31,740 nucleotides of DNA from a bacterium (GCA_035528375.1 DATKYS010000102.1:1-31740); one strand, 5' to 3'. Shown: positions 4,933 through 21,073, numbered from the stretch's first letter. Numbers and translations: made by a program. Notes: generated by a model not told the origin, from the sequence alone.

Positions 4933-5178
4933 CTATTCCTTGACGTGATCCTGGAGGTACTTGATGGCGTCGCCCACGGTGCGGATGCTGGCGGCGTCCT
5001 CGTCCGGGATCTCCATGTCGAACTCCTCCTCGAGCTTCATGACGAGTTCGACGGTGTCCAGGGAATCGGCGCCCAGGTCGTCCACGAAGGCGGCGTCAGG
5101 CGTCACCTGATCGGCGTCCACACTGAGCTCGTTGACCACGATCTCCTTAACCTTGGCCTCGATCTCTTCGTAGGTCAT
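4933..5178 (-). CDS. acpP: Acyl carrier protein
   Basis: 81 residues, very acidic, typical of ACP. The phosphopantetheine attachment serine is Ser39 in [12 protein letters not shown]. It carries growing acyl chains for fatty acid and lipid A synthesis. The ATG at 5178 follows GGGAGG with a short spacer. It is first in an acpP-fabF unit driven by a promoter at 5218-5247 and is divergent from the TetR/RND module. Confidence 0.97.
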
Positions 5179-5308: not shown

Positions 5309-5337
5309 TTGAAAACCGTCCCGATCCCATCTATACT
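5309..5337 (+). promoter_or_regulatory. Predicted promoter of the tetR-RND operon
   Basis: TTGAAA (5309-5314) and TATACT (5332-5337) are separated by 17 bases, each one mismatch from the sigma70 consensus. The predicted start is near 5344, at the edge of the inverted repeats described next. The distance to the tetR ATG is about 70 bases. Confidence 0.68.
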
Positions 5338-5345
5338 ATCTGACG

Positions 5346-5394
5346 AACCGACCAGAAATGCACATATAGTCGGTTGTCCGGTTTCGCTACCGAC
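5346..5394 (+). promoter_or_regulatory. Candidate operator: inverted ACCGAC/GTCGGT repeats
   Basis: AACCGAC at 5346-5352 is mirrored by GTCGGTT at 5369-5375, and a further inverted ACCGAC half-site lies at 5389-5394. All sit just downstream of the predicted transcription start and upstream of the tetR ribosome site. TetR-type repressors commonly bind such palindromes in their own promoters, so autoregulation is a reasonable inference. Binding itself is not shown. Confidence 0.42.
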
Positions 5395-5413
5395 CTGACC
5401 AAAAGGGGGGGGT

Positions 5414-5992
5414 ATGTCCGAGAACACTAAGAGGGCAATCCTCGACGGAGCCAAGCAGCTCTTCATCCGTTTCGGCAAACGGAAGACCTCGGTGGACGAG
5501 ATAGCGCATACCGCTCAAGTCGGTAAGGGTACGGTCTACTTCCACTTCAAGAGCAAAGAGGAAATCTGGGACACCATCGTCGGCGAGGAGGTGGACAAGG
5601 CCATCGAACGCATCACCGAGGCCCTGGACAAGATCGAGTCGGCCCGGGAGAAGCTGCGCACCTACATACAGATACGCTACCAGGTCTTCGGCGAGGAGTT
5701 GGATATTTTAAACATCCAGCAGGGCGTCCTGGACGAGCTCTTTCCAGAGATAACCGAAATTCTCGGGAAGCTGAAGACCAAGGAGATGGAGTTCCTCGGC
5801 CAAATCCTCACCTACGGCATCGAGCGCGGGGAGTTCAGGGAGGTGGACGTCGAGCTGCTCTCGATGATTCTGGTCGCGGTTCTCGAATCCACGGGCGAGT
5901 ACTGGATCAAGCAGGTGCGCCTCGTCGGGGCCGAGGGCGCGATGAACAACCTCCTGAACGTCTTCTTCCACGGACTCTTGAAGATAGACTGA
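5414..5992 (+). CDS. TetR/AcrR-family transcriptional regulator
   Basis: 192 residues, standard for the family. Residues about 8-55 form the TetR helix-turn-helix: AILDGAKQLFIRFGKRKTS, then VDEIAHTAQVGKGTVYFHF with the typical GKGTVY.HF recognition helix. The rest is the helical ligand-binding and dimer domain, which gives no clue to the ligand. The ATG at 5414 follows a G-rich site (AAAAGGGGGGGGT). It is first of four co-directional genes and 18 bases ahead of an RND exporter, so it most likely controls that exporter. Promoter and inverted repeats at 5309-5394 suggest it represses its own operon. The ligand could be a fatty acid or lipid, given the exporter type; this is inference. Confidence 0.9.
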   Translation: MSENTKRAILDGAKQLFIRFGKRKTSVDEIAHTAQVGKGTVYFHFKSKEEIWDTIVGEEVDKAIERITEALDKIESAREKLRTYIQIRYQVFGEELDILNIQQGVLDELFPEITEILGKLKTKEMEFLGQILTYGIERGEFREVDVELLSMILVAVLESTGEYWIKQVRLVGAEGAMNNLLNVFFHGLLKID

Positions 5993-6010
5993 CACCGCCG
6001 AAGGGGAATC

Positions 6011-9000
6011 TTGGAAAAAATCGCCGTTTTCGTCGTCCGCCACCGCTGGCCGGTCCTCATCGCCGTCCTCGCCGTGACCGGCTTTTTCTTCTGGGGCATG
6101 GGCGAGCTGAAGGTCAAGACCGACTTCATGGCCTCCATAGATCCCGAAGAGCCGGTGGTGAAGCTCTACGACTATATGGGAGAAACCTTCGGCGGCAACG
6201 ACGTCGCCCTAGTGGCCCTGGAGGCGGACGACGTCTTCCGTCGCGACGTTCTCGGGGCGATGCGGGGCTTCTCCCGGAAGGCCGAGACCCTGGCGGGCGT
6301 AGACTCCGTCCTGTGCCTGACCGAGATGATGGACATAAAAAAGACCGAGGGCGGCATCGAGGTCGGCGACCTGTTCGACCCCGGCGAGCCGCCGGATCAG
6401 AAGGAGATAGACGCCCTGCGCGGCTACATCCTGGACAAGGAGATGTACACAGGCATCTTCGTCTCGCCATCGGGTCATATGGCGGTCATCCTGGTCCGCC
6501 TCAGCGGGACCGGGGACGTGGACCGGGTCGCGCTGGGCCAGGAGCTGCGCCGCATGGCCGAGGATGGGTTCGCCGATACGGGCGTGAAGCTCTACTACGC
6601 CGGTCTGCCCTTCCAAATCTACTACATGGACGAGATCGTCCTCGATGACATGGGCCTTCTGACCCCCGTGGTCTTCGGCCTGGTGGCACTCGTACTGGGA
6701 CTCTTCTACCGCCGTCTGGCGGGCGTGTTCCTTCCGCTGGCCGGCGTGGGGTTCGCCGTGGTCTGGAGCCTGGGCCTCATGGGATTCACGGGAACCCCCA
6801 TCTCGCTCTTGACCGGCGTCCTCCCGGTGGTGCTGGTGGCGGTGGGCTCGGCCTATGCCATCCACGTGGTGAGCCGCTACGTGGACGAGAGGCGCCAGTG
6901 CGACGACCGGCGCGAGGCGACCCGGCGCGCCCTCTTCCACGTCGGTCTGCCAGTGCTCTTCGCCGGGCTGACCACGGTGGTCGGCTTCGGCTCCCTGGCG
7001 AGCGCCAATATCCAGATTATCCGGGAGATGGGCCTCTTCGCCGCCTTCGGCGTTTTCGGCGCCACCGTCATCTCCCTGACCCTGGTCCCGGCGGTCCTGG
7101 CCATAATCGGCGGCTCGGTGAAGCGGGATTTCGTGAACCGCATGGTCGAGCCGGGGAGGATATCCCACGCAACGGCCCGCTTCATCGAAAAACACCCCAG
7201 GCTGATCAGCTTAGGCGTCCTGGCCCTCTTCGCCGCGGGCGTCGTCGCCCTTCCCTACGTGCGGCGCGAGGTGAACCTGGTCGAGTTCTTCCCGGAGGAC
7301 TCCACCATGCGCGCCAGCGAGCGCGTGATAGAGAAGCACTTCGGCGGCAGCGTCCCGATGCAGGTGTACGTGCAGGGGGACATCCGCCACCCCAGCGTTT
7401 TAAAACGCATGGAGCGCATCGAGAAGCTGATGCGCTCCCAGGTGGGTCACGGAGCCCAGAGCATCGGGGCGCTCCTGCGCGAGCTCTGCTTCAACCTGTA
7501 CGACGAGCGCCGCATCCCGCCGACCCGCGACGGGGTCAACGAGCTCTTCTACCTCATCGAGGGCAACGACCTGTTGAAGAACCTGGTCGCCCGGGGCGAC
7601 TACTACCCGCCGGAGGTTACGCGTCGTCTCGCCGCCTTCTACCCGACGCCGGCACCCGACGATGCACAGACCGACGATGGGGAAAATCTGGAGACCGAGG
7701 CGGTCATCGTCACCAACGTCTCCAGCTCCCGGACCCAGGAGATGATAGCCCACACCCAGGTGCTGTCGGCGTTCCTGGCGTCCGACGTACCGCGGCTGGA
7801 ATCGCCGGTGACCGTGGCCGACCTGGGGCGGACGGCCTTCGACGTGCTGCGGGACTACCAGCTCGGTTGGATAGCCTGGGGACTCTCCCGCGACGCGCTG
7901 TACCGGGGGTTGGATCTGAGCCGGGAGGAGGCCCTGCTCGCGCTACGGGAGGCGGGGCTCGGCGAGCCGGTCTCGATGGACGCCGAAACCATCGCGGGCA
8001 CCCTGACCCCCTGGTTGGAGAACTACGTGAAAAATTCCGGCGACGTGCTCCTGGACGACGGGCCCGCGTTGGAGCGCCTGGGAAAAACGGTCGCCGGCGT
8101 CTGGCGGCCCGGCGGGGACCTGTACCCCGACCCGGCGGAAATCTCCGCCGCCATCGAGGGTGCCCTGCCCGAAAGCTACCTGGCAGAATACCCCGACGAC
8201 CCGGACTGGCTCGCCGACATCATCGCCAAGCGGACGACCCACAACATCCAGAACGGCGTGGTGGACCGCTGGACGCAAAAAGTGCTGGGGAGGCTGCCCG
8301 AGCCGTTCTCCGCCGACGCGGAGTTCGTCTCCGACCTGCGCGGAGCCCTCTTCGAGCTCACCGACCGCACGGCCTACGTGCCGTCGGACATGGCCTGGCG
8401 CCTGACCGGGGAGCCCCCGAAGGAAATCGTCCCCCTGCTCGTCACGCAGAGCGGCTTCCCCCGCATCTTCGGCGTCATGGAACAAAAGCTGGTGGATAAC
8501 CAGAAGGTCTCCATGGCCATCGCCTACGTGCTGGTCTTCTTCCTCCTCCTGGCCGTGATGCGCAACATCGTCGGCGGCCTGCTGGCCTCGATTCCCATCC
8601 TGCTGACGATTTTGATAAATTTCGCCATCATGGCCCTGTGGGGCATCCCGCTGGACTTCGTCACCATGATGATAGCCAGCCTGGTCATCGGCATCGGGGT
8701 GGACTACACCATCCACTTCACGGAAAGTTTCCGCCGTGAGCTCGGGCGGTCGGAAAGCCCCGTCGCGGCGCTGGAGCGGGTCCTGGCCACCACCGGTCGC
8801 GCGGTCATCATCAACGCCACGAGCGTCGCCGCGGGCTTCCTGGTGCTCCTCGCCAGCGAAATAATCCCCCTGCGCCAGTTCGGCGTACTGGTGGCGGTGA
8901 CCATGATCGCCAGCTCCCTGGCGGCGCTGGTCATCCTCCCGGCCATTTACTTCACCTTCCGGCCGAAATTCATCTTCAACAAGGGGCTTAAGCCCCTCGT

Positions 9001-9022
9001 CCCGGAGAAGGAGAAAGAATGA
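6011..9022 (+). CDS. RND-superfamily (MMPL/COG1033-type) exporter
   Basis: 1003 residues with TTG start; AAGGGGA lies just upstream. The architecture is the RND duplicated plan: one N-terminal membrane helix (about 12-32), a periplasmic loop of about 180 residues, helices 2-6 (about 213-375), helix 7 (about 395-416), a second periplasmic loop of about 415 residues, and helices 8-12 (about 832-990). The second half contains the family motif IGIGVDYTIHF after helix 10, the position of the proton-relay acid. The first half has GSAYAIHVVSRY at the equivalent place without the acid, so coupling may be asymmetric. No HAE-type adaptor is encoded. Relatives move lipids or other hydrophobic molecules across the inner membrane. 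It overlaps the next gene by 4 bases (ATGA), indicating translational coupling. The substrate is unknown. Confidence 0.9.
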   Translation: MEKIAVFVVRHRWPVLIAVLAVTGFFFWGMGELKVKTDFMASIDPEEPVVKLYDYMGETFGGNDVALVALEADDVFRRDVLGAMRGFSRKAETLAGVDSVLCLTEMMDIKKTEGGIEVGDLFDPGEPPDQKEIDALRGYILDKEMYTGIFVSPSGHMAVILVRLSGTGDVDRVALGQELRRMAEDGFADTGVKLYYAGLPFQIYYMDEIVLDDMGLLTPVVFGLVALVLGLFYRRLAGVFLPLAGVGFAVVWSLGLMGFTGTPISLLTGVLPVVLVAVGSAYAIHVVSRYVDERRQCDDRREATRRALFHVGLPVLFAGLTTVVGFGSLASANIQIIREMGLFAAFGVFGATVISLTLVPAVLAIIGGSVKRDFVNRMVEPGRISHATARFIEKHPRLISLGVLALFAAGVVALPYVRREVNLVEFFPEDSTMRASERVIEKHFGGSVPMQVYVQGDIRHPSVLKRMERIEKLMRSQVGHGAQSIGALLRELCFNLYDERRIPPTRDGVNELFYLIEGNDLLKNLVARGDYYPPEVTRRLAAFYPTPAPDDAQTDDGENLETEAVIVTNVSSSRTQEMIAHTQVLSAFLASDVPRLESPVTVADLGRTAFDVLRDYQLGWIAWGLSRDALYRGLDLSREEALLALREAGLGEPVSMDAETIAGTLTPWLENYVKNSGDVLLDDGPALERLGKTVAGVWRPGGDLYPDPAEISAAIEGALPESYLAEYPDDPDWLADIIAKRTTHNIQNGVVDRWTQKVLGRLPEPFSADAEFVSDLRGALFELTDRTAYVPSDMAWRLTGEPPKEIVPLLVTQSGFPRIFGVMEQKLVDNQKVSMAIAYVLVFFLLLAVMRNIVGGLLASIPILLTILINFAIMALWGIPLDFVTMMIASLVIGIGVDYTIHFTESFRRELGRSESPVAALERVLATTGRAVIINATSVAAGFLVLLASEIIPLRQFGVLVAVTMIASSLAALVILPAIYFTFRPKFIFNKGLKPLVPEKEKE

Positions 9023-9750
9023 AATCCTTAGCGGCAATCACCCTGACCCTGTTCATCTTCACGTGCGCGCCCGCCCCGGCCGTTACCGCCCAGGGGATTC
9101 TGGACAAAATAGCCGACACCCTGACCGGCGCCCAAGACATGACCGCGGTTTATAAAATAACCGTCACCGATGCCGACGGCTCCAGTCAGACCTCGACGAT
9201 TAAAATCTGGACCCTGGGCGAAGAGAAACGGATGATCAAGTACACCTCCCCGTCCTCGGTGAAGGGCATCGGCTTTCTGGTGCTGGGCGAGGACGAGATG
9301 TACTTCTACTCCCCCAGCCGGGCCGACGTCCGCCGCATCGCCGGCCACGCCCGCAACGAAGGCTTTCACAACACCGACTTCAGCTACGCGGACATGGCGA
9401 GCTACGACTACTCCGCGGACTACACGGCGGAGCTGGTGGAGACCACCGACGCGCAGTACAAGCTCAAGCTCGTCCCGAAATCCGGCGCGGACACGGGCTA
9501 CTCGAGCCTCTACATGTGGGTCAACCGGGATACCTGGGTCTTCGACCGCATAGACTTCTACGACTCCTCGGGGCTCGTGAAACGCATGACCACGGGGTCG
9601 GTATCGGTGAGGGACGGCTACACGACCCTGGGCGCCCTTTTGATGGTCAACCAGGGGAACGGCCACAAGACCCGGATAACCATCTCCAGCGTGGAGTACG
9701 ACACCGGCCTCGAGTCGTCCTTCTTCAGCCAGCGCGAACTCAAGAAATAA
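9019..9750 (+). CDS. LolA-like outer-membrane lipoprotein-sorting family protein
   Basis: 243 residues. A signal peptide ends near residue 24 (PAVTAQG). Cys16 lies inside it, but the preceding Thr makes a lipobox unlikely, so a soluble periplasmic protein is expected. The body (GAQDMTAVYKITVTD, KIWTLGEEKRMIKYTSP, FYSPSRADVRRIAGHARNEG, and KLKLVPK in the second half) matches the COG2834 LolA-like family: a half-barrel that binds acyl chains and shuttles them across the periplasm. These proteins often accompany RND exporters and outer-membrane barrels, as here. It starts within the RND stop codon and ends 12 bases before the barrel gene. A role as carrier for the exported molecule is inferred; true LolA for lipoproteins is less likely. 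Confidence 0.85.
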   Translation: MKSLAAITLTLFIFTCAPAPAVTAQGILDKIADTLTGAQDMTAVYKITVTDADGSSQTSTIKIWTLGEEKRMIKYTSPSSVKGIGFLVLGEDEMYFYSPSRADVRRIAGHARNEGFHNTDFSYADMASYDYSADYTAELVETTDAQYKLKLVPKSGADTGYSSLYMWVNRDTWVFDRIDFYDSSGLVKRMTTGSVSVRDGYTTLGALLMVNQGNGHKTRITISSVEYDTGLESSFFSQRELKK

Positions 9751-9762
9751 ACGGGGGTATCC

Positions 9763-11181
9763 ATGAAACGTTTACCCATCGTGTTTTTACCGGCGCTCCT
9801 GGCGGCCGCCTCGACGGCACAGGAGGGCGAAGTCGAGTACCCCGACGAAACCGACTCGGGCGCGGTGGTCGAGGACTCCGGCCTCGTCCCCGAGATAGAG
9901 CTGGGCGCCGTCATCACCGCGGACCTGCGCCACCTGACCGAGCCGCCTCACACCTTCACCTACAACGAAAACGACGTAAGCCTCTCCGTCGCGACCAAGT
10001 GGGAGAAGGCCGAGGCCGCCGGCAGCCTGCGCCTGCGCGGGCTGGGGTTTTCCACCGCCTCCTCCTCGGCCGACCTGGAGTACATCGGCTACGTGGACCC
10101 GTGGAGCCTGGAGCTCGAGAGCGCCTACCTCAACCTCTACGGCCTCCCCCTGGACCCGGTGGACATCTCCATCGGCAAACAGGAAATCGGCTGGGGGGTC
10201 GGCGACAAGCTGCGCACCTACGACGAGGTCAACCCCGGCGACTACGAGGACCCGCTGGATTTCGGCGAGCACCTGGGAGTGAACATGGTGCGCCTGACCG
10301 GCTGGTTCTCGGGCACCTGGTTCCTGGAGGGCGTCTTCATCCCCGGCTTCACCCCGGCCCGGCTCCCCGCCGAGCGGTGGCAGGAGGTCCCGGAAATGGA
10401 CCTCGGCGATTACATGGGCTTTCCGCTGTGGCTGTCGGAGCTATCCACACCCATCGAGCAGCCGGAATCCTCCCTGGCCGAATCGGCCCAGTACGGCGCC
10501 CGGGTCAGGGGCAGCCTGGGGCCGGTGGACCTCGAGCTGGCCTACCTCTACACCCGGGAGCACCTCCCCGTGGCCACCGGCATGACCGTTGATGTGACCG
10601 TGGACCCCGACGCACCGCCCTTCAACATTCCGGTGAACGTCACCGCCCGGGGCACCTTCCCGCGGCGGCACATCGTCGGCGCCTCCTTCGCCGCCGACGT
10701 TTTCGATCTGGGCCTGTGGGGCGAGGTGGCGGCCTACGTCTACCCCGAGGACATCCTCCAGACCCAGACCAGCCCCCTGGGCACCACCGAAACGGTCCTC
10801 TATCCGCAGGGCGCCTTCTTCAAGTGGATGGGAGGGATTGATTACAGCTTCGACGGCTGGTACACGCAGCTCCAGTACGTCCACGGGCTGTACGACGAGC
10901 GCGGCGCCGCCGAAATGGGCGACTACTTCGTCCTCGCACTGGAGAAGGGCCTCTTCTACGACGTGTTGAAAATCCGCCTGGCCGCGGGGGTGGAGGTGCC
11001 CGACTTCGAAACCTTCGACGAGAATTGGGGCTTCATCCTGCTGCCCGAGCTGACGTACTCACCGCTAACCGGTCTCGACGTGATCCTTGGCGGATACTGG
11101 CTCGAAGGAAAAGGCGACTCCAAGTTTGCCGGGATGGAGACCAACGACGAGGTGTACCTGAAGGTCCGTGTGGATCTGTAG
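9763..11181 (+). CDS. Outer-membrane beta-barrel protein, DUF1302-like
   Basis: 472 residues with a signal peptide (MKRLPIVFLPALLAAASTAQ). The remainder alternates short polar and hydrophobic strands rich in Tyr, Trp, Asp and Gly, typical of outer-membrane barrels. The segment IGKQEIGWGVGDKLRTYDEV followed by NPGDYEDP resembles the conserved R/W-G-D...NP region of DUF1302-type barrels that occur beside RND exporters and LolA-like proteins. The C-terminus (DEVYLKVRVDL) ends in a beta-signal-like alternating strand. It is the last gene of the tetR-RND-LolA-barrel run and is followed by a strong terminator. It could accept or export the cargo at the outer membrane; this is inference. Confidence 0.78.
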   Translation: MKRLPIVFLPALLAAASTAQEGEVEYPDETDSGAVVEDSGLVPEIELGAVITADLRHLTEPPHTFTYNENDVSLSVATKWEKAEAAGSLRLRGLGFSTASSSADLEYIGYVDPWSLELESAYLNLYGLPLDPVDISIGKQEIGWGVGDKLRTYDEVNPGDYEDPLDFGEHLGVNMVRLTGWFSGTWFLEGVFIPGFTPARLPAERWQEVPEMDLGDYMGFPLWLSELSTPIEQPESSLAESAQYGARVRGSLGPVDLELAYLYTREHLPVATGMTVDVTVDPDAPPFNIPVNVTARGTFPRRHIVGASFAADVFDLGLWGEVAAYVYPEDILQTQTSPLGTTETVLYPQGAFFKWMGGIDYSFDGWYTQLQYVHGLYDERGAAEMGDYFVLALEKGLFYDVLKIRLAAGVEVPDFETFDENWGFILLPELTYSPLTGLDVILGGYWLEGKGDSKFAGMETNDEVYLKVRVDL

Positions 11182-11199: not shown

Positions 11200-11227
11200 A
11201 GCGGGCCCCGCGGCCCGCTCCGTTTTT
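11200..11227. terminator. Bidirectional rho-independent terminator
   Basis: AGCGGGCC (11200-11207) pairs perfectly with GGCCCGCT (11212-11219) around a CCGC loop. A T run follows on the plus strand (11223-11227) and six T on the minus strand, so it can stop both the barrel gene and the convergent TonB-like gene. Confidence 0.9.
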
Positions 11228-11241
11228 CGGAACCGTTCGGC

Positions 11242-11871
11242 TCACCAGAAATACGCCGGCTGGCGGTAGGCGACGGTCCGTTCCAGCACCCAGCCCACCG
11301 GATCGCCGTTGACGGTGGCCGGACGCCACAGCGTTTTGGCGAAAAATGCCAGGGCGTCCAGGTCGGCCTCGCGGCGGCCCGAGCTCTCGATAATCCACAC
11401 CTTCCCCGGCCGCCCGTCGGGGGCGACGTAAACGCCCACCCTGACTTCTCCTTCCCAGCGGCGGTCGTTCAATTTCAGGGGCGGGGCGTCGGGGACGAAG
11501 ATACCGGTCGGCTCGACCACACGGGCGGTCGAGGGCGTACCGGAGGAGGGATCGAGGTCGGTCTCTTCGATCGGCTCGCCCAGGCCGACCGGTTCGGTCG
11601 AGAGCGGCCGGGATCGGTTTTCCGGTGAAGCCGCGGCCGCCTCCGTCTCAACCGAACCAGATACGACCGGGGTCGCCGGGCTCAAGGCCTCGGGCATTCC
11701 CGGCGGCTCGACGACCGCCTCGGAGGATTCGAGGCTCACCGCGATGGGCAGCTCGCGGCAGTTCCTGGCCGGCGGCTCCACGGAGCCAGGCCCGGCCACC
11801 AGCCCCCGCAGGAGAAGCAGGTGCGCCAGGACGGACAGGAGTATCCCGCTCCGCAAGACACCCGATTTCAC
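11242..11871 (-). CDS. TonB-like energy-transducer protein (paralogue 1)
   Basis: 209 residues from the GTG at 11871, chosen because GGGAGAGG lies 8 bases upstream. The longer TTG start at 11889 overlaps that site. Layout: one N-terminal membrane anchor (about 7-25, GILLSVLAHLLLLRGLV), a Pro/Glu/Ser-rich periplasmic spacer (about 30-135), and a TonB C-terminal domain (WEGEVRVGVYVAPDGR, then SSGRREADLDALAFF and LWRPATVNGDPV). TonB proteins transmit inner-membrane proton-motive energy to outer-membrane transporters. No ExbB or ExbD is encoded nearby, so the partner, if any, is elsewhere. It shares its C-terminal pattern with the gene at 12026-12673. Convergent with the barrel gene; a functional link to that barrel is possible but unproven. 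Confidence 0.82.
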   Translation of the reverse strand: MKSGVLRSGILLSVLAHLLLLRGLVAGPGSVEPPARNCRELPIAVSLESSEAVVEPPGMPEALSPATPVVSGSVETEAAAASPENRSRPLSTEPVGLGEPIEETDLDPSSGTPSTARVVEPTGIFVPDAPPLKLNDRRWEGEVRVGVYVAPDGRPGKVWIIESSGRREADLDALAFFAKTLWRPATVNGDPVGWVLERTVAYRQPAYFW

Positions 11872-11954
11872 GCGGTTGACCTCTCCCAACTGCGGCCGGT
11901 GGCGAATGCTGAAGCATCCCGCCGGTCTTGGATAAAGCGCAGGCGACGTCCGGT

Positions 11955-12025: not shown

Positions 12026-12673
12026 TCAGAACCCGGCCCTCTGGTAGGCCTGATCGTAGGGCACCTTGACGAATAGCCGGCAGACTGTGGGCCGTCCGTC
12101 CACGGTGGCCGGCCGCCACTGGGTGTCGCGGTAGCAGACGAGGGCGTCCCGGTCGGCGTCCTCTCGACCCGAGGACTCCTCCACCCACAGGTCCACCATC
12201 CGCCCCTGGGCGTCTATCAGGAGACCCAACGTGACCGTACCCTCCCACCGGGAGCTGGCGAGGGACTCCGGCATGACCGGGTCGTGTCGCCCGCCGACGA
12301 GAACAGGTTGGACTATGACGGCCGGGATGTTGTAATCGTAGCGGAAATCGAAAGTCTCCACGGCCGGCTGGGATTGAGCGCTCTCGGCCTCCGGCTGCTC
12401 CTCCTCCTCGACGGTCTCGATGTCCCGGTCGTTGACCACGATGGGCTCGGTGATCCCGTCTATCAGTTGGCGGATGGTCGCCAGGCGCTGCGGCTCGGTA
12501 TCCCGCTCGGTGAGGATTGACAGAACGGTGACGGGCCCGCCGCTGCGGTTCGGCGGCTCCCCCTGCGCCACCCCGACCCTGATCACCCACATCATTATCA
12601 GCAGGTTGACCAGAAGGGACAGGAGCAGGAAGCGGCTAATTCCGCGCCAACCTTTATCGTCTTGTTCCATCAT
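12026..12673 (-). CDS. TonB-like energy-transducer protein (paralogue 2)
   Basis: 215 residues beginning MMEQDDKGW; the second ATG (12670) is an alternative. It has an N-terminal membrane helix (about 11-34, ISRFLLLSLLVNLLIMMWVI), a periplasmic spacer with an acidic run (ETVEEEEQPEAES), and a TonB-type C-terminal domain (WEGTVTLGLLIDAQGR, ESSGREDADRDALVC, QWRPATVDGRP). The C-terminal domain is clearly related to that of the downstream gene, down to the R-W-E-G and WRPATV motifs, whereas the spacers have diverged. This suggests an old tandem duplication. No ribosome site is obvious. It is divergent from mtnA. The cognate outer-membrane receptor is not identifiable here. Confidence 0.82.
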   Translation of the reverse strand: MMEQDDKGWRGISRFLLLSLLVNLLIMMWVIRVGVAQGEPPNRSGGPVTVLSILTERDTEPQRLATIRQLIDGITEPIVVNDRDIETVEEEEQPEAESAQSQPAVETFDFRYDYNIPAVIVQPVLVGGRHDPVMPESLASSRWEGTVTLGLLIDAQGRMVDLWVEESSGREDADRDALVCYRDTQWRPATVDGRPTVCRLFVKVPYDQAYQRAGF

Positions 12674-13968: not shown

Positions 13969-15015
13969 TCAGAGCACCGACTCCGCCGCCGGCTCCTCCG
14001 CCAGAAGCTCCGCTTCCCGGGCGTCCATCTCGGCGAAGACCCGCCGGACCATCTCCTCGGCCCCTTCTGGCATTAGCGCCTCATTGTACCGGTCCACGTA
14101 GTACCCCAGGCCGTTGTTGCCCAGCGGCACATCAATCAGGCCGCCCGTGAAGCCCTCGTGGATGGTCTTCTCCATGACGTCGTACACCGCGTCGTTGATG
14201 TTGCGCAGCATGCTGGTCAGGATGTGCCCCTTCTCGATCCAGTTCTGGTTGAGGTCGCTTCCGATGGCCAGCCGGTTGTAGTTCTTGGCCATCAGAAAGA
14301 CCGCCTCGGCGCTCTTGCCGCAGAAGGCGAAGATGATGTCCACGTTGCGGCCGTACTGTTTGCGTGCCAGGAACTCGGCGCGCTGCGGGTTGTTGAGGGC
14401 ATCGGGTCCGGAGCCGATGAAATCCGCGATGACCTCGATCTCGGGGATCTCCCGCCCCTCGTCGCGCAGGAGCCCGGCGGCTATCATCGCCCCCTCCTGG
14501 TAGCCGGCCAGCACCCGCCGGCTGGAGCGGTCCTCGAAGGCCCCGATGAAGCCTATCCGGCCGGTCCGGGTGGTCATCGCCGCGATGACGCCCATGGAGA
14601 CCGCGGCCCGACGGCTCTCCAGGGAGAGGGCGACGACGTTGTCCATCTCGACCTCCCCGTCCACCAGGATGAAGTGCTGGTCCGGGTGGGCGAGGGCCAC
14701 CGGCTCGAGGTCGGAGGGGTCGCAGGCCACCACGATGCAGTCCAGACCGTCCGCGGCCAGCTCCTCCAGGAAGCTCTGGAGCTCCTGTTGGTCGCGGGGC
14801 TCCCGTTCGGTGAGGCTGACCCTGTAGTCGCGCACCGAGCGGGACACGGCCAGCTTTATCGCCTCGTTGAAGGATTTGTCGTTGCTGCCACCCAGGCCGT
14901 AGATGACGCCCAGCTTGAACTTACCCTCCACGGTGGAGGAGTCCTCGCAGGCGATCGCGAAGATAAGGGCGCAGAGAAAGCCGACGAGCGCCAGGAGCTT
15001 GAACCTATCCGTCAT
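13969..15015 (-). CDS. BMP-family (PnrA/TmpC-like) substrate-binding lipoprotein
   Basis: 348 residues with a lipoprotein signal whose lipobox cysteine is Cys23 (ALIFAIAC). The mature part is a basic membrane protein-type periplasmic binding fold: KLGVIYGLGGSNDKSFNEA near the N-terminus, DGLDCIVVACDPSDLEPVA, GRIGFIGAFEDRSSRRVLAGYQEGA, and VDIIFAFCGKSAEAVFLMA. Family members bind nucleosides or related ligands for an ABC importer. No ATPase or permease is encoded here, so it is an orphan in this window. The ATG at 15015 has GGGGAGG upstream and overlaps the last 11 bases of waaA, which implies co-transcription and coupled translation with the Kdo transferase gene. Confidence 0.88.
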   Translation of the reverse strand: MTDRFKLLALVGFLCALIFAIACEDSSTVEGKFKLGVIYGLGGSNDKSFNEAIKLAVSRSVRDYRVSLTEREPRDQQELQSFLEELAADGLDCIVVACDPSDLEPVALAHPDQHFILVDGEVEMDNVVALSLESRRAAVSMGVIAAMTTRTGRIGFIGAFEDRSSRRVLAGYQEGAMIAAGLLRDEGREIPEIEVIADFIGSGPDALNNPQRAEFLARKQYGRNVDIIFAFCGKSAEAVFLMAKNYNRLAIGSDLNQNWIEKGHILTSMLRNINDAVYDVMEKTIHEGFTGGLIDVPLGNNGLGYYVDRYNEALMPEGAEEMVRRVFAEMDAREAELLAEEPAAESVL

Positions 15016-16330
15016 TCCCGCGGCCTCCCCGGTGAGGAGCTGACAAACCGCACAGGCGCTCCAGTCGGTCCGCGATGCGGGCGGAGGCGCCGGCCCGCTC
15101 CTCGCAGTACTTTCGCGCGGCGGCGCCCTTTGATCTGGCTTCCGACGGGTCTTTTAACAACCGTCGCAGCGTTTTTTCGAGCTGGTCGAAATCCTCGACC
15201 CGCTCGGCGATGCCCATCCCGGCGAGCTCCACCGCCTCCGCCGAATTGCCGATTCGAGGTCCGAAGACCAGTGCCGCTCCGAAGGCCGCCGGTTCCAGGA
15301 CGTTGTGCAGACCGCGGTCCCAAAAACCGCCGCCGACGTAAGCCACCCGGGCCGGGGAGTAAAGCTCGAAGAGGCAACCCACGGTGTCCACGAGGACCAG
15401 TCTGCCCGCGACGGCTCCTCCCCGCTCAACGATGGCCGTCAGCCTTTCGGGGGTCACACCCCGGGCGGTCAAGGATGATTCTATCCCCCCCAGGTGCCCC
15501 CCGTCAACGTGATGGGGGGCCAGGACTACCACCAGATCTTCCCGCTCGGCCAGGAGTTTCGCGAGGATGGGCAGGAGTCCCTCCTCGTCGGGGGGGTGGG
15601 TGCTGCCGCAGACGAGGACAGTTCCGGCGTGCGCAAAGCGGATGGGCGGCCCGCCGGCCGAATCGCGGCGCGACAGGACGGCGTCGAACTTGGAATCGCC
15701 GGTAACCTCCACCCCCGTGGGCGAAACGGCCCGGAGGAAGCGGGCACTCGGGGCGTCGGCGGCGCCGATGAAGCTGCAGGCGCGTAAGACCGCCCTATAA
15801 AAACCGCGCAGGAGCGGGTGGGCCATCCCGGAACGCCGGTGGACGGCGGCCGAGATCAGGGCCACGGGGACACCGGCCTCCCGAGCCGTCCAGGCCAGCT
15901 CCGGCCAAAGATCGAACTTGACGACACAGAGCAGATGGGGCTTAATAAGGTCGAGGAGTCGCCGAGCCGCCGCCGGTGAATCCAGCGGCAGGAGGAAGAC
16001 GTGATCGGCCAGACCCCCGTGGCGGCCGTGTCGCAGACCGGTCTCGGAAAAGAAGCTCAAATAGACGATCAACCGGTCGCCGTGGCGCCGACGCAGCTCG
16101 GCGAGGATGGGTCGAGCCTGTTCGAACTCCCCCAGCGAAGCGCAGTGGAACCACAGTCGCGGCTTGCCCCGCCCGAGACGTCCGACGGCCTCCGTCAGCC
16201 CGGCGCGCCACCCCCGACGGGCGGCGAAACCTGAACGAACGTCGGCGTTCGCGAAGACGGCGAAGGAAGCGGCGAGGCGGACGACCGGAACGAAAACGAG
16301 GTCGTAGAGGAGGCGCCAGAATTCCAGCAT
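15005..16330 (-). CDS. waaA: 3-deoxy-D-manno-octulosonic acid transferase (Kdo transferase)
   Basis: 441 residues from the ATG at 16330. The frame is open to 16537, but MLEFWRLLYDLVFVPVVRLA is the expected N-terminal membrane anchor, so the shorter start is preferred although its ribosome site is weak. It is a GT30-family enzyme adding Kdo to lipid A precursor at the inner membrane. Visible features are HCASLGEFEQARP with the catalytic Glu68, GSTHPPDEEG, APHHVDG, and the nucleotide-sugar region VDTVGCLFELYSPARVAYVGG followed by GLHNVLEPAAFG. Its presence argues for an LPS-bearing outer membrane. It is divergent from dnaA, sharing the 438-base intergenic region. The downstream gene overlaps by 11 bases. 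Confidence 0.94.
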   Translation of the reverse strand: MLEFWRLLYDLVFVPVVRLAASFAVFANADVRSGFAARRGWRAGLTEAVGRLGRGKPRLWFHCASLGEFEQARPILAELRRRHGDRLIVYLSFFSETGLRHGRHGGLADHVFLLPLDSPAAARRLLDLIKPHLLCVVKFDLWPELAWTAREAGVPVALISAAVHRRSGMAHPLLRGFYRAVLRACSFIGAADAPSARFLRAVSPTGVEVTGDSKFDAVLSRRDSAGGPPIRFAHAGTVLVCGSTHPPDEEGLLPILAKLLAEREDLVVVLAPHHVDGGHLGGIESSLTARGVTPERLTAIVERGGAVAGRLVLVDTVGCLFELYSPARVAYVGGGFWDRGLHNVLEPAAFGAALVFGPRIGNSAEAVELAGMGIAERVEDFDQLEKTLRRLLKDPSEARSKGAAARKYCEERAGASARIADRLERLCGLSAPHRGGRGNDG

Positions 16331-16567
16331 GGGCGGATTATACGACGCCTCGCGGGGTGAGTAAAGGCGGCGCCGCGTCTGGGTCCCGAAAAGACCAGAG
16401 ACCCGTCCGAGGGGTCGTCGTTTGGTGACGAAATTCACGATAAATTTTTTCCTCGTTGTTATCCAAGCCCTTACACCCACGCCGGGGTAAAAAACCCCAC
16501 GCACCCCCTTGAGCCGTTTTTTTGGGTGTGCTAACATAAATCGCTGTTACATCTGGTGTTAACAACT

Positions 16568-18319: not shown

Positions 18320-21073
18320 ATGCGGAAGATATTGATATTGTTGGTGTTAGCCTTAGCCTTCAGCTCCCTCGCCGTAGAGCCCGAGGCCAAGCTCACCGAT
18401 TACCTCCAGGGCTACATGGCCACGAGTGCCGACAACGAGCTGCTTCCCTGCTACATCACCCTGCGGACCCAGCTCGACCGGGCGACGACGGCCCAGCTCC
18501 GGCTCGGCCGCACGAAGGACGAGGCCCGGGCGGCCGTTACGAGCTGGCTCAAGAACGCGGCCGCAGCCGAGCAGGAGGGCCTGCTGCGGTGGCTGTCCGC
18601 CAACCAGACCAACGATTCGGTGGGCGCCTACCACCCCTTCTGGATCTCCAACTTCGTCTTCGCCGAGCTGACCCCGGACGCGATCCGTGAAGTCGCCCAA
18701 CGGCCCGAGGTGGCCCGCATCACCCGCGGCGCCGACGGCGAGGGCCAGTGGATCGGGCTCGGATTTAAGGCCGGGGAAAGCGCCGAACCGCTCACCGTTT
18801 ACGACAACGGCCGCGAAATCGCCTGGGGCGTGGAACAGGTAAACGCTCCCGACGTCTGGGACCTGGGTTACACCGGCAACGGCGCCGCCGTGGTAATCGG
18901 TGACACGGGTCAGCGCTATACGCACGTGGACCTCTACAGCCACTACGACTCCTCGATCAGCTACGATTACGCGGACTACGACTCCGACCCCTACTTCCAA
19001 TCCGGTGAGGAACACGGCACGCACTGCGCGGGCAGCGTCGGCTCCGACGGCACCGCCGGCACCCAGGCCGGCGTGGCTCCGGAGTTCACATACGGCGCCC
19101 ACCGCCTGTACATGTACGGCAACCACACCGGAGAACTGTCCGTGTGGGCCTCCTGGGAAGGCGCCGTGGACTTCGGCGCGGACGTCGTTTCCAACTCTCT
19201 GGGCTGGCTGGACAGCTGGAATCCGGACAAGCCCACCTGGCGCACCAACGCCCAGAACACCATCGCCGCCGGCACAACCCTGGTCATCGCCGCCGGTAAC
19301 GAGGGACCCAACCCCAATACGCTCCGCACACCGGGCAACGTGCCAGAAATCATCAGCGTCGGCGCCACCGACTCCAGCGACACAATCGCCAGCTTCTCCA
19401 GCCGTGGACCCACCGACGAGTGGGGTGCCGACGACTGCATCAAGCCCGACGTGTCCGCCCCCGGCGTCAACATCAAGAGCTGCTACGTCTCCTCGGACAC
19501 GGCGTATCAGGGCGGGTGGAACGGCACATCAATGGCGACCCCCCACGTCGCCGGCGCCTGCGCCCTCCTCCTGGACGCCGATCCCTCGCTGACCCCCGAG
19601 AAGCTGAAGCAGATTCTGGAGGACACCGCCCTCGACCTCGGCGATCCCGGCAAAGACAACGACTACGGCTCGGGCCGTCTGGATGTCCTGGCCGCGGTTG
19701 AGTCCCTGGGCAGTCCGCCCCCCGATGAGCCCGATTTCGAACTCGACGGCGTAACAATCACCTCGGACTCCGACTCCGACGGCCTGATCGAGCCCGGTGA
19801 GGCCGTGGAAGTCGAGGTCACCATCGGCAACATCGGAGAGGGACCCGGATCGAGCACCACGGGCACCCTCACCTGCTCCAGCCCCGACATCACGATCACC
19901 GACGGCGACGGTGACTTCGGCACCATCCCCGTCGGCGGCACCGCTTCGTCCACCTTCGGCTTTAACGTCGGCTCCTGGGCCGAGGCCCCCGAGTCCTACG
20001 AGTTCACCCTGACGGTGCAATCCCAGGGCTTCGACTCCCAGGACCTCTTCTTCACCCTCTTCACGCCGGCCGACATGATAGACGACGACGTGGAAAGCGG
20101 GGAGTGGTACTGGACACACTCCGGCGACAACGATCAGTGGCACATCGAGGAATACCGCTCGCATTCACCCACCCATTCGTGGAAGTGCGGGGGACCCGGC
20201 GGTGACGACTACACCAACAACCTGAACGCCTCCCTCTACTCGCCCCCGGTGTACGTTGACCCGAGCTCCGCGGAGCTGCGCTACTGGACCTGGTACGATC
20301 TGCAGTCCACCCACGACATCGGCTACGTCGAAATCTACAACAGCTCCGACTGGACCCTTCTCGCCGAACACGACGGCACACAGAACTCATGGATGGATTG
20401 TGCGCTCAATCTGACCGCCTACGCCGACAGTGTGGTGCAATTCCGCTTCCGGTTCGTCTCCGACGCCGACACCACCTTCGAAGGCTGGTACGTGGACGAC
20501 ATCCAGGTGAACGTGCCCGAAGAGAGCGCCTCCTGGGTCTCCATCGGGACCAAACTCACCTCGGACGGCGTCATGCTTACATGGACCGCGGACTACGGCT
20601 TCGCCGGCTTCAACGTCTACCGCGCCGCGGAGGGCGACGACCTCTCCAGGCTCCGCCTCAACGCCGAATCCCTCCGGGGCGGCACCCTCGGGGCCTGGCT
20701 CGACCGGCCCGAAGAGGGCGACTACGACTACTACATCGAGGGCTTAAAACCCGACGGAACGACCGTCTCCTACGGTCCCGCCGAGGTGTCCTACCGTCCC
20801 TCCGCCGACCTGGCCTTGGCGCTCGACAGGCCCTTCCCGAATCCGACCTCCGGCAGGGTCAACTTCGCATTCACCCTGCCCGAGGCGCAGGACGTGACCC
20901 TGGCAGTCTTCGATCTGGCCGGGCGCCGCGTCTCGACCGTCCAGACCGGCGAGCTGGCCGCGGGCCGGCACACCTTGGCCTGGGAAGCAGACGGAGCCAG
21001 CGCGGGCGTGTACATCATCCGCCTGGAAGCCCGGGAGGGCGTGCTCACGCAACGGTTCATCGTCGCCCGGTAA
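18320..21073 (+). CDS. Secreted S8 (subtilisin-like) serine protease with C-terminal sorting domain
   Basis: 917 residues. A signal peptide (1-18) is followed by a propeptide-like region (about 40-140). The catalytic domain (about 170-460) contains the full set: Asp195 (VVIGDTGQ), His232 (EEHGTHCAG), oxyanion Asn327 (AAGNEGPN) and Ser404 (NGTSMATPHVAG). Next comes a CARDB-like beta domain (about 475-580, LIEPGEAVEVEVTIGNIG). A jelly-roll region similar to the immune-inhibitor-A/MAM-like part of bacillopeptidase F follows (about 585-735, ending GWYVDDIQV). The final 85 residues (from about 832: FPNPTSGRVNF, VFDLAGRRV, GVYIIRLEA) are an FlgD-like/type IX-like C-terminal sorting domain. It is expected to be extracellular or surface-attached and to degrade proteins for nutrition. 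ATG chosen with GGGGGT upstream. Flanked by its own promoter and terminators, so it is a single-gene unit. Confidence 0.93.
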   Translation: MRKILILLVLALAFSSLAVEPEAKLTDYLQGYMATSADNELLPCYITLRTQLDRATTAQLRLGRTKDEARAAVTSWLKNAAAAEQEGLLRWLSANQTNDSVGAYHPFWISNFVFAELTPDAIREVAQRPEVARITRGADGEGQWIGLGFKAGESAEPLTVYDNGREIAWGVEQVNAPDVWDLGYTGNGAAVVIGDTGQRYTHVDLYSHYDSSISYDYADYDSDPYFQSGEEHGTHCAGSVGSDGTAGTQAGVAPEFTYGAHRLYMYGNHTGELSVWASWEGAVDFGADVVSNSLGWLDSWNPDKPTWRTNAQNTIAAGTTLVIAAGNEGPNPNTLRTPGNVPEIISVGATDSSDTIASFSSRGPTDEWGADDCIKPDVSAPGVNIKSCYVSSDTAYQGGWNGTSMATPHVAGACALLLDADPSLTPEKLKQILEDTALDLGDPGKDNDYGSGRLDVLAAVESLGSPPPDEPDFELDGVTITSDSDSDGLIEPGEAVEVEVTIGNIGEGPGSSTTGTLTCSSPDITITDGDGDFGTIPVGGTASSTFGFNVGSWAEAPESYEFTLTVQSQGFDSQDLFFTLFTPADMIDDDVESGEWYWTHSGDNDQWHIEEYRSHSPTHSWKCGGPGGDDYTNNLNASLYSPPVYVDPSSAELRYWTWYDLQSTHDIGYVEIYNSSDWTLLAEHDGTQNSWMDCALNLTAYADSVVQFRFRFVSDADTTFEGWYVDDIQVNVPEESASWVSIGTKLTSDGVMLTWTADYGFAGFNVYRAAEGDDLSRLRLNAESLRGGTLGAWLDRPEEGDYDYYIEGLKPDGTTVSYGPAEVSYRPSADLALALDRPFPNPTSGRVNFAFTLPEAQDVTLAVFDLAGRRVSTVQTGELAAGRHTLAWEADGASAGVYIIRLEAREGVLTQRFIVAR

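Follow-up and report, generated by a model that had tools for sequence, protein, structure and literature searches.

The locus described here raises the question of what a compact four-gene set, encoding a TetR-family regulator, an RND pump, a LolA-like periplasmic carrier and an outer-membrane beta-barrel, carries across the envelope of the bacterium that encodes it. The set lies at 5414-11181 of a 31,740 bp stretch of bacterial DNA (GCA_035528375.1, DATKYS010000102.1:1-31740), the whole of which is referred to as the window. For most bacterial phyla, little is known of how lipids other than lipopolysaccharide (LPS) get to the outer membrane. The best-supported reading of the set, which we regard as probable, is a TetR-controlled module carrying an acyl lipid from the inner to the outer membrane, in which the class of cargo, its outward direction and the hand-over between the parts are predicted. 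The module and its flanking signals were as follows.

5309-5337, + strand: sigma-70-like promoter, TTGAAA-17-TATACT, 10/12 consensus match
5347-5374, no strand assigned: candidate TetR operator, 28-bp inverted repeat ACCGAC-N16-GTCGGT, just 3′ of the -10
5414-5992, + strand: tetR, TetR-family regulator, FadR/YsiA-like (PF00440, PF08359, FadR structures)
6011-9022, + strand: RND pump, HAE3/MMPL type, long form of 1003 aa, TTG start (PF03176, AlphaFold2 model)
9019-9750, + strand: LolA_like (PF17131) periplasmic carrier (profile match; apparent signal peptide)
9763-11181, + strand: outer-membrane beta-barrel, distant DUF1302 relative (weak profile match, AlphaFold2 model)
11200-11219, + strand: terminator-like hairpin and T run, between convergent genes

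The original prediction described a tightly packed four-gene module with one promoter and one terminator, and each of these elements was found. Open reading frame calling placed the genes with intergenic gaps of 18, -4 and 12 bases and detected no additional structural gene within 5414-11181. There was one promoter-like site and one terminator-like hairpin, which was 8 bp long, G+C-rich and started 18 bases past the last stop of the operon.

Across 84,980 species genomes, the search identified 80 RND loci, with at least 18 named phyla represented. A LolA_like gene was found downstream on the RND strand, within 2.5 kb, in 62 of the 64 loci whose sequence extended 1.2 kb or more beyond the RND gene, and a barrel gene followed 50 of the 59 LolA genes that had room for one. 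TetR was encoded directly upstream of the RND in 34/65 loci. All 69 LolA and 59 barrel matches were on the strand of the RND gene. In an independent sample, 12 of 15 additional genomic loci had the carrier and barrel downstream. Among 61 genomes sampled around that of the window, the order TetR-RND-LolA-barrel was present in the window's own family and in G006, G014, G027 and G030, with partial sets elsewhere; within the genus of the window the order was seen in pieces on broken contigs, and the phylum of G014 and G057 offered only 1-2 genomes to search. The recurrence of the gene set is well beyond chance, and the scattered homologues that would have spoken against a conserved cluster were not seen. 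Tandem duplicated RND genes preceded a single LolA-barrel pair at three loci (L055:689-6922, L101:1488-6429 and L104:4539-9522), possibly as paired pumps with different cargo. One contig (L130:2-11214) encoded two convergent RND-LolA-barrel sets, one RND of which was cut by the edge of the fetched stretch, and a 3738-aa frame in L106 was discarded as an artefact of masked N bases.

Analysis of the distant relatives with a long RND (about 950-1030 aa) revealed genes of lipid metabolism in or beside the operon. These encoded acyl carrier protein (ACP), FabH, PlsX, PlsC-type acyltransferase, patatin-like phospholipase and UbiB, and additionally a START-like protein, a PAP2 phosphatase (with the operon in L129) and radical-SAM/SPASM enzymes. 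The gene order was UbiB-PlsC-ACP-FabH-PlsX-RND-LolA-barrel-patatin in L042, TetR-radical-SAM-radical-SAM-PlsC-ACP-ACP-RND-LolA in L043 and TetR-ACP-RND-LolA-barrel-patatin-PlsC in L049, where ACP was encoded immediately before the RND. A patatin gene was located between RND and LolA in L048, L052, L053, L058 and L076. The commonest neighbours of the long RND were patatin (12 loci) and PlsC-type acyltransferase (10 loci). The lipid-gene query set was drawn from these operons, and the seed genes were removed before distances were compared. This left 35 lipid genes within 3 kb (1.51 per 10 kb) and one beyond 5 kb (0.12 per 10 kb), a difference of ~13-fold (p = 2e-4), and in the independent sample 10 lay near the operon with none far from it (p = 0.018); these p-values assume independent matches, which related genomes are not, and are indicative only. 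The density of lipid genes around short-RND relatives was 0.46 per 10 kb. No published link of the gene set with ACP, FabH, PlsC, patatin or radical-SAM enzymes was found in a literature search that was without most subscription papers. The neighbourhood evidence narrows the cargo question for RND-LolA-barrel sets to a testable answer, an acyl lipid; as the operons of L042, L043, L048, L049 and L076 hold synthesis genes, a laboratory host expressing such a cluster could be used to make and identify the product.

The radical-SAM/SPASM genes (~485 aa, CxxxCxxC) of the long-RND operons were at L043:4900-8967, L048:5261-6724, L076:3357-7346 and L066:5894-7363. Their nearest NCBIfam models were maturases, far under cut-off, and homologues also occurred away from any RND (L120). 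A possible role for them as synthases of tetraether or membrane-spanning lipids was not adopted, the tetraether synthase 7tol being only the third, weak PDB match (E 1e-5).

The window RND matched PF03176 (MMPL) in two stretches (173.8 bits, cut-off 20.5). It scored 283 bits with the HAE3 subfamily model TIGR00921, below the cut-off of 351.9, and is a relative of that subfamily, not a formal member. Its AlphaFold2 model (predicted local distance difference test score, pLDDT, 87.5) showed an RND fold with two periplasmic loops, the second of which contained a mostly helical insert of ~180 residues (about residues 605-785) that is missing from short relatives. The conserved Asp of the tenth transmembrane (TM) helix, D898, and H902 were invariant in 42 relatives. 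The best structural matches of the model were MmpL5 and MmpL4, several of them solved with AcpM bound, followed by NPC1L1, HpnN and MmpL3. Alignment with MmpL5 (9b46) using VIA-align gave a Z of 42.7 and an rmsd of 3.4 Å over 681 residues; AcrB-type pumps equalled MmpL5 in Z but at ~5 Å or more over ~560 residues. The nearest folds of the model are thus those of lipid or siderophore exporters and sterol transporters, which we counted in favour of a lipid cargo.

In mycobacteria, MmpL5 is contacted by AcpM at its C-terminus and at the TM6-TM7 helix, where a Trp and basic residues are involved (PMC11633376, PMC12501195). The MmpL4/MmpL5-AcpM systems are the closest in structure to the window RND, and the ACP on their cytosolic face has a parallel in the ACP genes that neighbour the RND in several relatives of the window set. 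They differ in that the window set has no MmpS partner, has the helical insert instead of a long coiled coil and does not keep the AcpM-contacting Trp. The TM6-TM7 helix of the window RND is basic; as it is basic in all 42 relatives, its charge is not informative about ACP docking. Given the ACP neighbours, the MmpL5-AcpM contact, so far seen as a co-purification surprise, may be a wider feature.

The carrier matched the full PF17131 profile (153.9 bits, cut-off 30) and scored 20.5 bits with the canonical LolA model TIGR00547, below the cut-off of 112. Its fold was predicted from solved homologues (9tp6, 3bk5 and 4z48). PF17131 was present at full length twice more in the window's own genome (G000). 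On contig C75 (L144:1164-5391) the gene came after those for an ABC ATPase and two permeases of the FtsX/MacB type, giving a LolCDE-like set with a LolA_like carrier. On contig C100 (L143:3281-7271) it preceded a second barrel gene, whose product belongs to the family of the window barrel (E 2e-20), together with genes for a 3beta-HSD-like dehydrogenase and for an enzyme of the steroid 5-alpha-reductase type (PF02544), the latter gene being the only one in G000. The contig ends just upstream and an RND partner may have been cut off. A 3beta-HSD-like gene was also located between the barrel and RND of L110. These neighbours appear to tie PF17131-barrel pairs to lipid chemistry, and were likewise counted for a lipid cargo.

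The barrel was weak by sequence (DUF1302, 26.6 bits, cut-off 23.2), and a sequence search found no solved relative of it. Its AlphaFold2 model was a confident full barrel (pLDDT 88.2) that resembled OprD/Occ, MOMP and AlgE (Z 21-23). A FadL-like lipid channel was considered and set aside, no FadL being among the best structural matches listed, an absence that is no exclusion. The resemblance to OprD, MOMP and AlgE weighs against lipid passing through the barrel lumen, with a receptor role or release of the cargo into the membrane as the alternatives. Because the genome encodes LPS-type envelope parts, including a Kdo transferase at 15008-16537 in the window, the organism is expected to have an outer membrane. 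The pump, carrier and barrel would form the predicted complete route across the envelope.

The regulator matched PF00440 (TetR_N, 51 bits) and PF08359 (25.6 bits, cut-off 21), and aligned over residues 8-187, nearly its full length, with the FadR structures 3whb/1vi0 in the PDB (E 2e-15). The Bacillus-type FadR model NF053878 gave 75 bits, below its cut-off of 200 yet the best of all regulator models. Because of this score under the NCBIfam cut-off, we infer only by likeness to the acyl-CoA sensor FadR/YsiA that the ligand would be a fatty-acyl compound. Promoter-like sites of the quality found here occurred four times in 9 kb, with 1.0 expected by chance. The position was conserved in the sister species G001 as TTGACA-17-TAGACT; the intergenic region upstream of tetR also holds the divergent acpP promoter. 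The operator-like repeat was perfect over 8-bp arms in G001 (ACCGACCA-N12-TGGTCGGT) and was kept, in altered form, in two other genera; SMBSF40 had a 28-bp version (ATTGACC...GGTCAAT). Perfect 8-bp inverted repeats with a spacer of 6-18 bases were present in 16 of 52 upstream regions, compared to 3.1 on average after shuffling; of the 16, one was a run of N and several differed in sequence or position. Such repeats upstream of tetR are compatible with autorepression by TetR.

Taken together, the module may work as follows. Driven by the proton gradient, the RND would extract its cargo, a fatty-acid derivative or an acylated lipid, from the inner membrane and pass it to the soluble LolA-like carrier, which would cross the periplasm and deliver it to, or at, the outer-membrane barrel. 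TetR would repress the operon at the operator overlapping the operon start until released by a fatty-acyl ligand. In a wider proposal, many candidate phyla would use the long-RND module as a dedicated system for lipid synthesis and export: ACP would dock on the RND from the cytosol, in the manner of AcpM on MmpL5, and a lipid made by ACP/FabH, PlsC-type and radical-SAM enzymes would pass to the LolA-like carrier and barrel and so to the outer membrane; this we consider quite improbable.

The guess at a lipid or fatty-acid-derived cargo had been drawn from the two genes next to the operon.

4936-5178, - strand: acpP, divergent neighbour outside the operon, sole close copy in the genome
3610-4842, - strand: fabF, housekeeping neighbour, sole copy in the genome

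The pair adjoined the housekeeping genes def and fmt. Three species of a single genus keep it next to tetR, and in G006 the distance is ~2.8 kb; in G005, from one genus of the family, it was not found adjoining the operon. As these are the only copies in the genome, lie by def and fmt and are not beside the operon in G005, their adjacency says little, and it was rejected as direct evidence of a lipid cargo. The guess itself gained support from the lipid genes in or beside the operon of distant relatives; the reason first given for it, housekeeping sole copies, did not stand.

Several points weigh against lipid export by the window set. The window's own family has no dedicated lipid enzyme in the operon, acpP-fabF being the housekeeping copy. 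In the tree this family formed a well-supported branch of its own (4 rows, support 100), not clearly within the lipid-linked clade, and so we infer the lipid cargo of the window set only by extension from its distant relatives. The likeness of the barrel is to polar-solute channels (OprD, MOMP, AlgE) and not to FadL-type lipid channels. Finally, the nearest characterised set with similar parts, AmeABCD of Castellaniella defragrans, handles monoterpenes (PMC6394551). In AmeABCD an HAE3-type RND (AmeD) is encoded with a LolA-superfamily protein (AmeB), AmeC and a DUF1302 barrel; envelope-spanning export has been proposed for it, and its deletion lowers monoterpene tolerance (PMC6394551). The window set might likewise rid the cell of toxic apolar compounds (monoterpenes, hydrocarbons or drugs, for example), and TetR, which matches QacR-type regulators too, would be a multidrug sensor. 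The Thalassolituus oleivorans proteins TOL_3187/TOL_3188, an MMPL-LolA fusion with an adjoining porin-like protein, are also in keeping with this, being induced on C28 alkane (PMC6304351). However, AmeB is a DUF1329 protein whereas the window carrier is PF17131 with no DUF1329 match, AmeC (COG4447), present in every gene set of that lineage (PMC6394551), is absent from the window operon, and AmeD has 787 aa compared to 1003 aa. TOL_3187/TOL_3188 differ in that RND and LolA are fused in one protein tied to growth on long-chain alkanes (PMC6304351). With the set embedded among lipid synthesis genes in many relatives, we judge efflux of hydrophobic compounds unlikely.

Lipid might instead move inward, the module maintaining the outer membrane by retrieving or recycling phospholipids or fatty acids with the patatin phospholipase and PlsC acyltransferase of relatives. 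That these two are the commonest long-RND neighbours would fit a remodelling set and not a de novo pathway, but the same operons also encode FabH, ACP and PlsX, an indication of synthesis, and the closest RND structures are exporters, so that inward transport seems a shade less probable again than the wider synthesis-and-export proposal. The structural matches to MmpL4/MmpL5 would also suit a siderophore, or another metabolite of lipopeptide-like kind, as the exported cargo, by analogy with mycobacteria; in Porphyromonas and Prevotella, iron starvation strongly induces TetR-MMPL-PF17131 operons (PMC10434189). Those operons share the TetR, MMPL and PF17131 genes with the window set and differ from it in having ABC ATPases and in this iron-starvation induction (PMC10434189). 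The scan of operon neighbours revealed no recognisable genes for iron or siderophore functions, no MmpS-like partner was recognised, and siderophore export appears the least probable of these explanations, highly unlikely.

Two further systems resemble the window set in part. BstABC of Methylococcus transports sterols, its cargo having been shown by binding (PMC10942540). Like the window set it comprises an inner-membrane RND, a periplasmic carrier and an outer-membrane part, but BstB is of the phosphonate-binding type (PF12974) and BstC is of another family; the window RND scored 100 bits with the NCBIfam BstA model, below the cut-off of 1400. HpnN shares the RND/MMPL fold and has a lipid (hopanoid) cargo, but works without a co-encoded carrier or barrel (PMC6394551), and its model gave the window RND 122 bits, below the cut-off of 752. 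The window set is kin of AmeABCD, BstABC and the MmpL systems and a member of none; for AmeABCD, BstABC and HpnN it fails one or more of the tests that define them. The most fitting description is a PF17131 variant within the known RND-LolA-barrel kind.

Elsewhere in the window, two successive genes with TonB C-terminal domains (11242-11889 and 12026-12673, - strand) were convergent with the operon. The gene at 18320-21073 (+ strand) encodes a secreted protease of the subtilase type that carries a Por secretion tail domain, and this tail suggests type IX-like secretion in the lineage.

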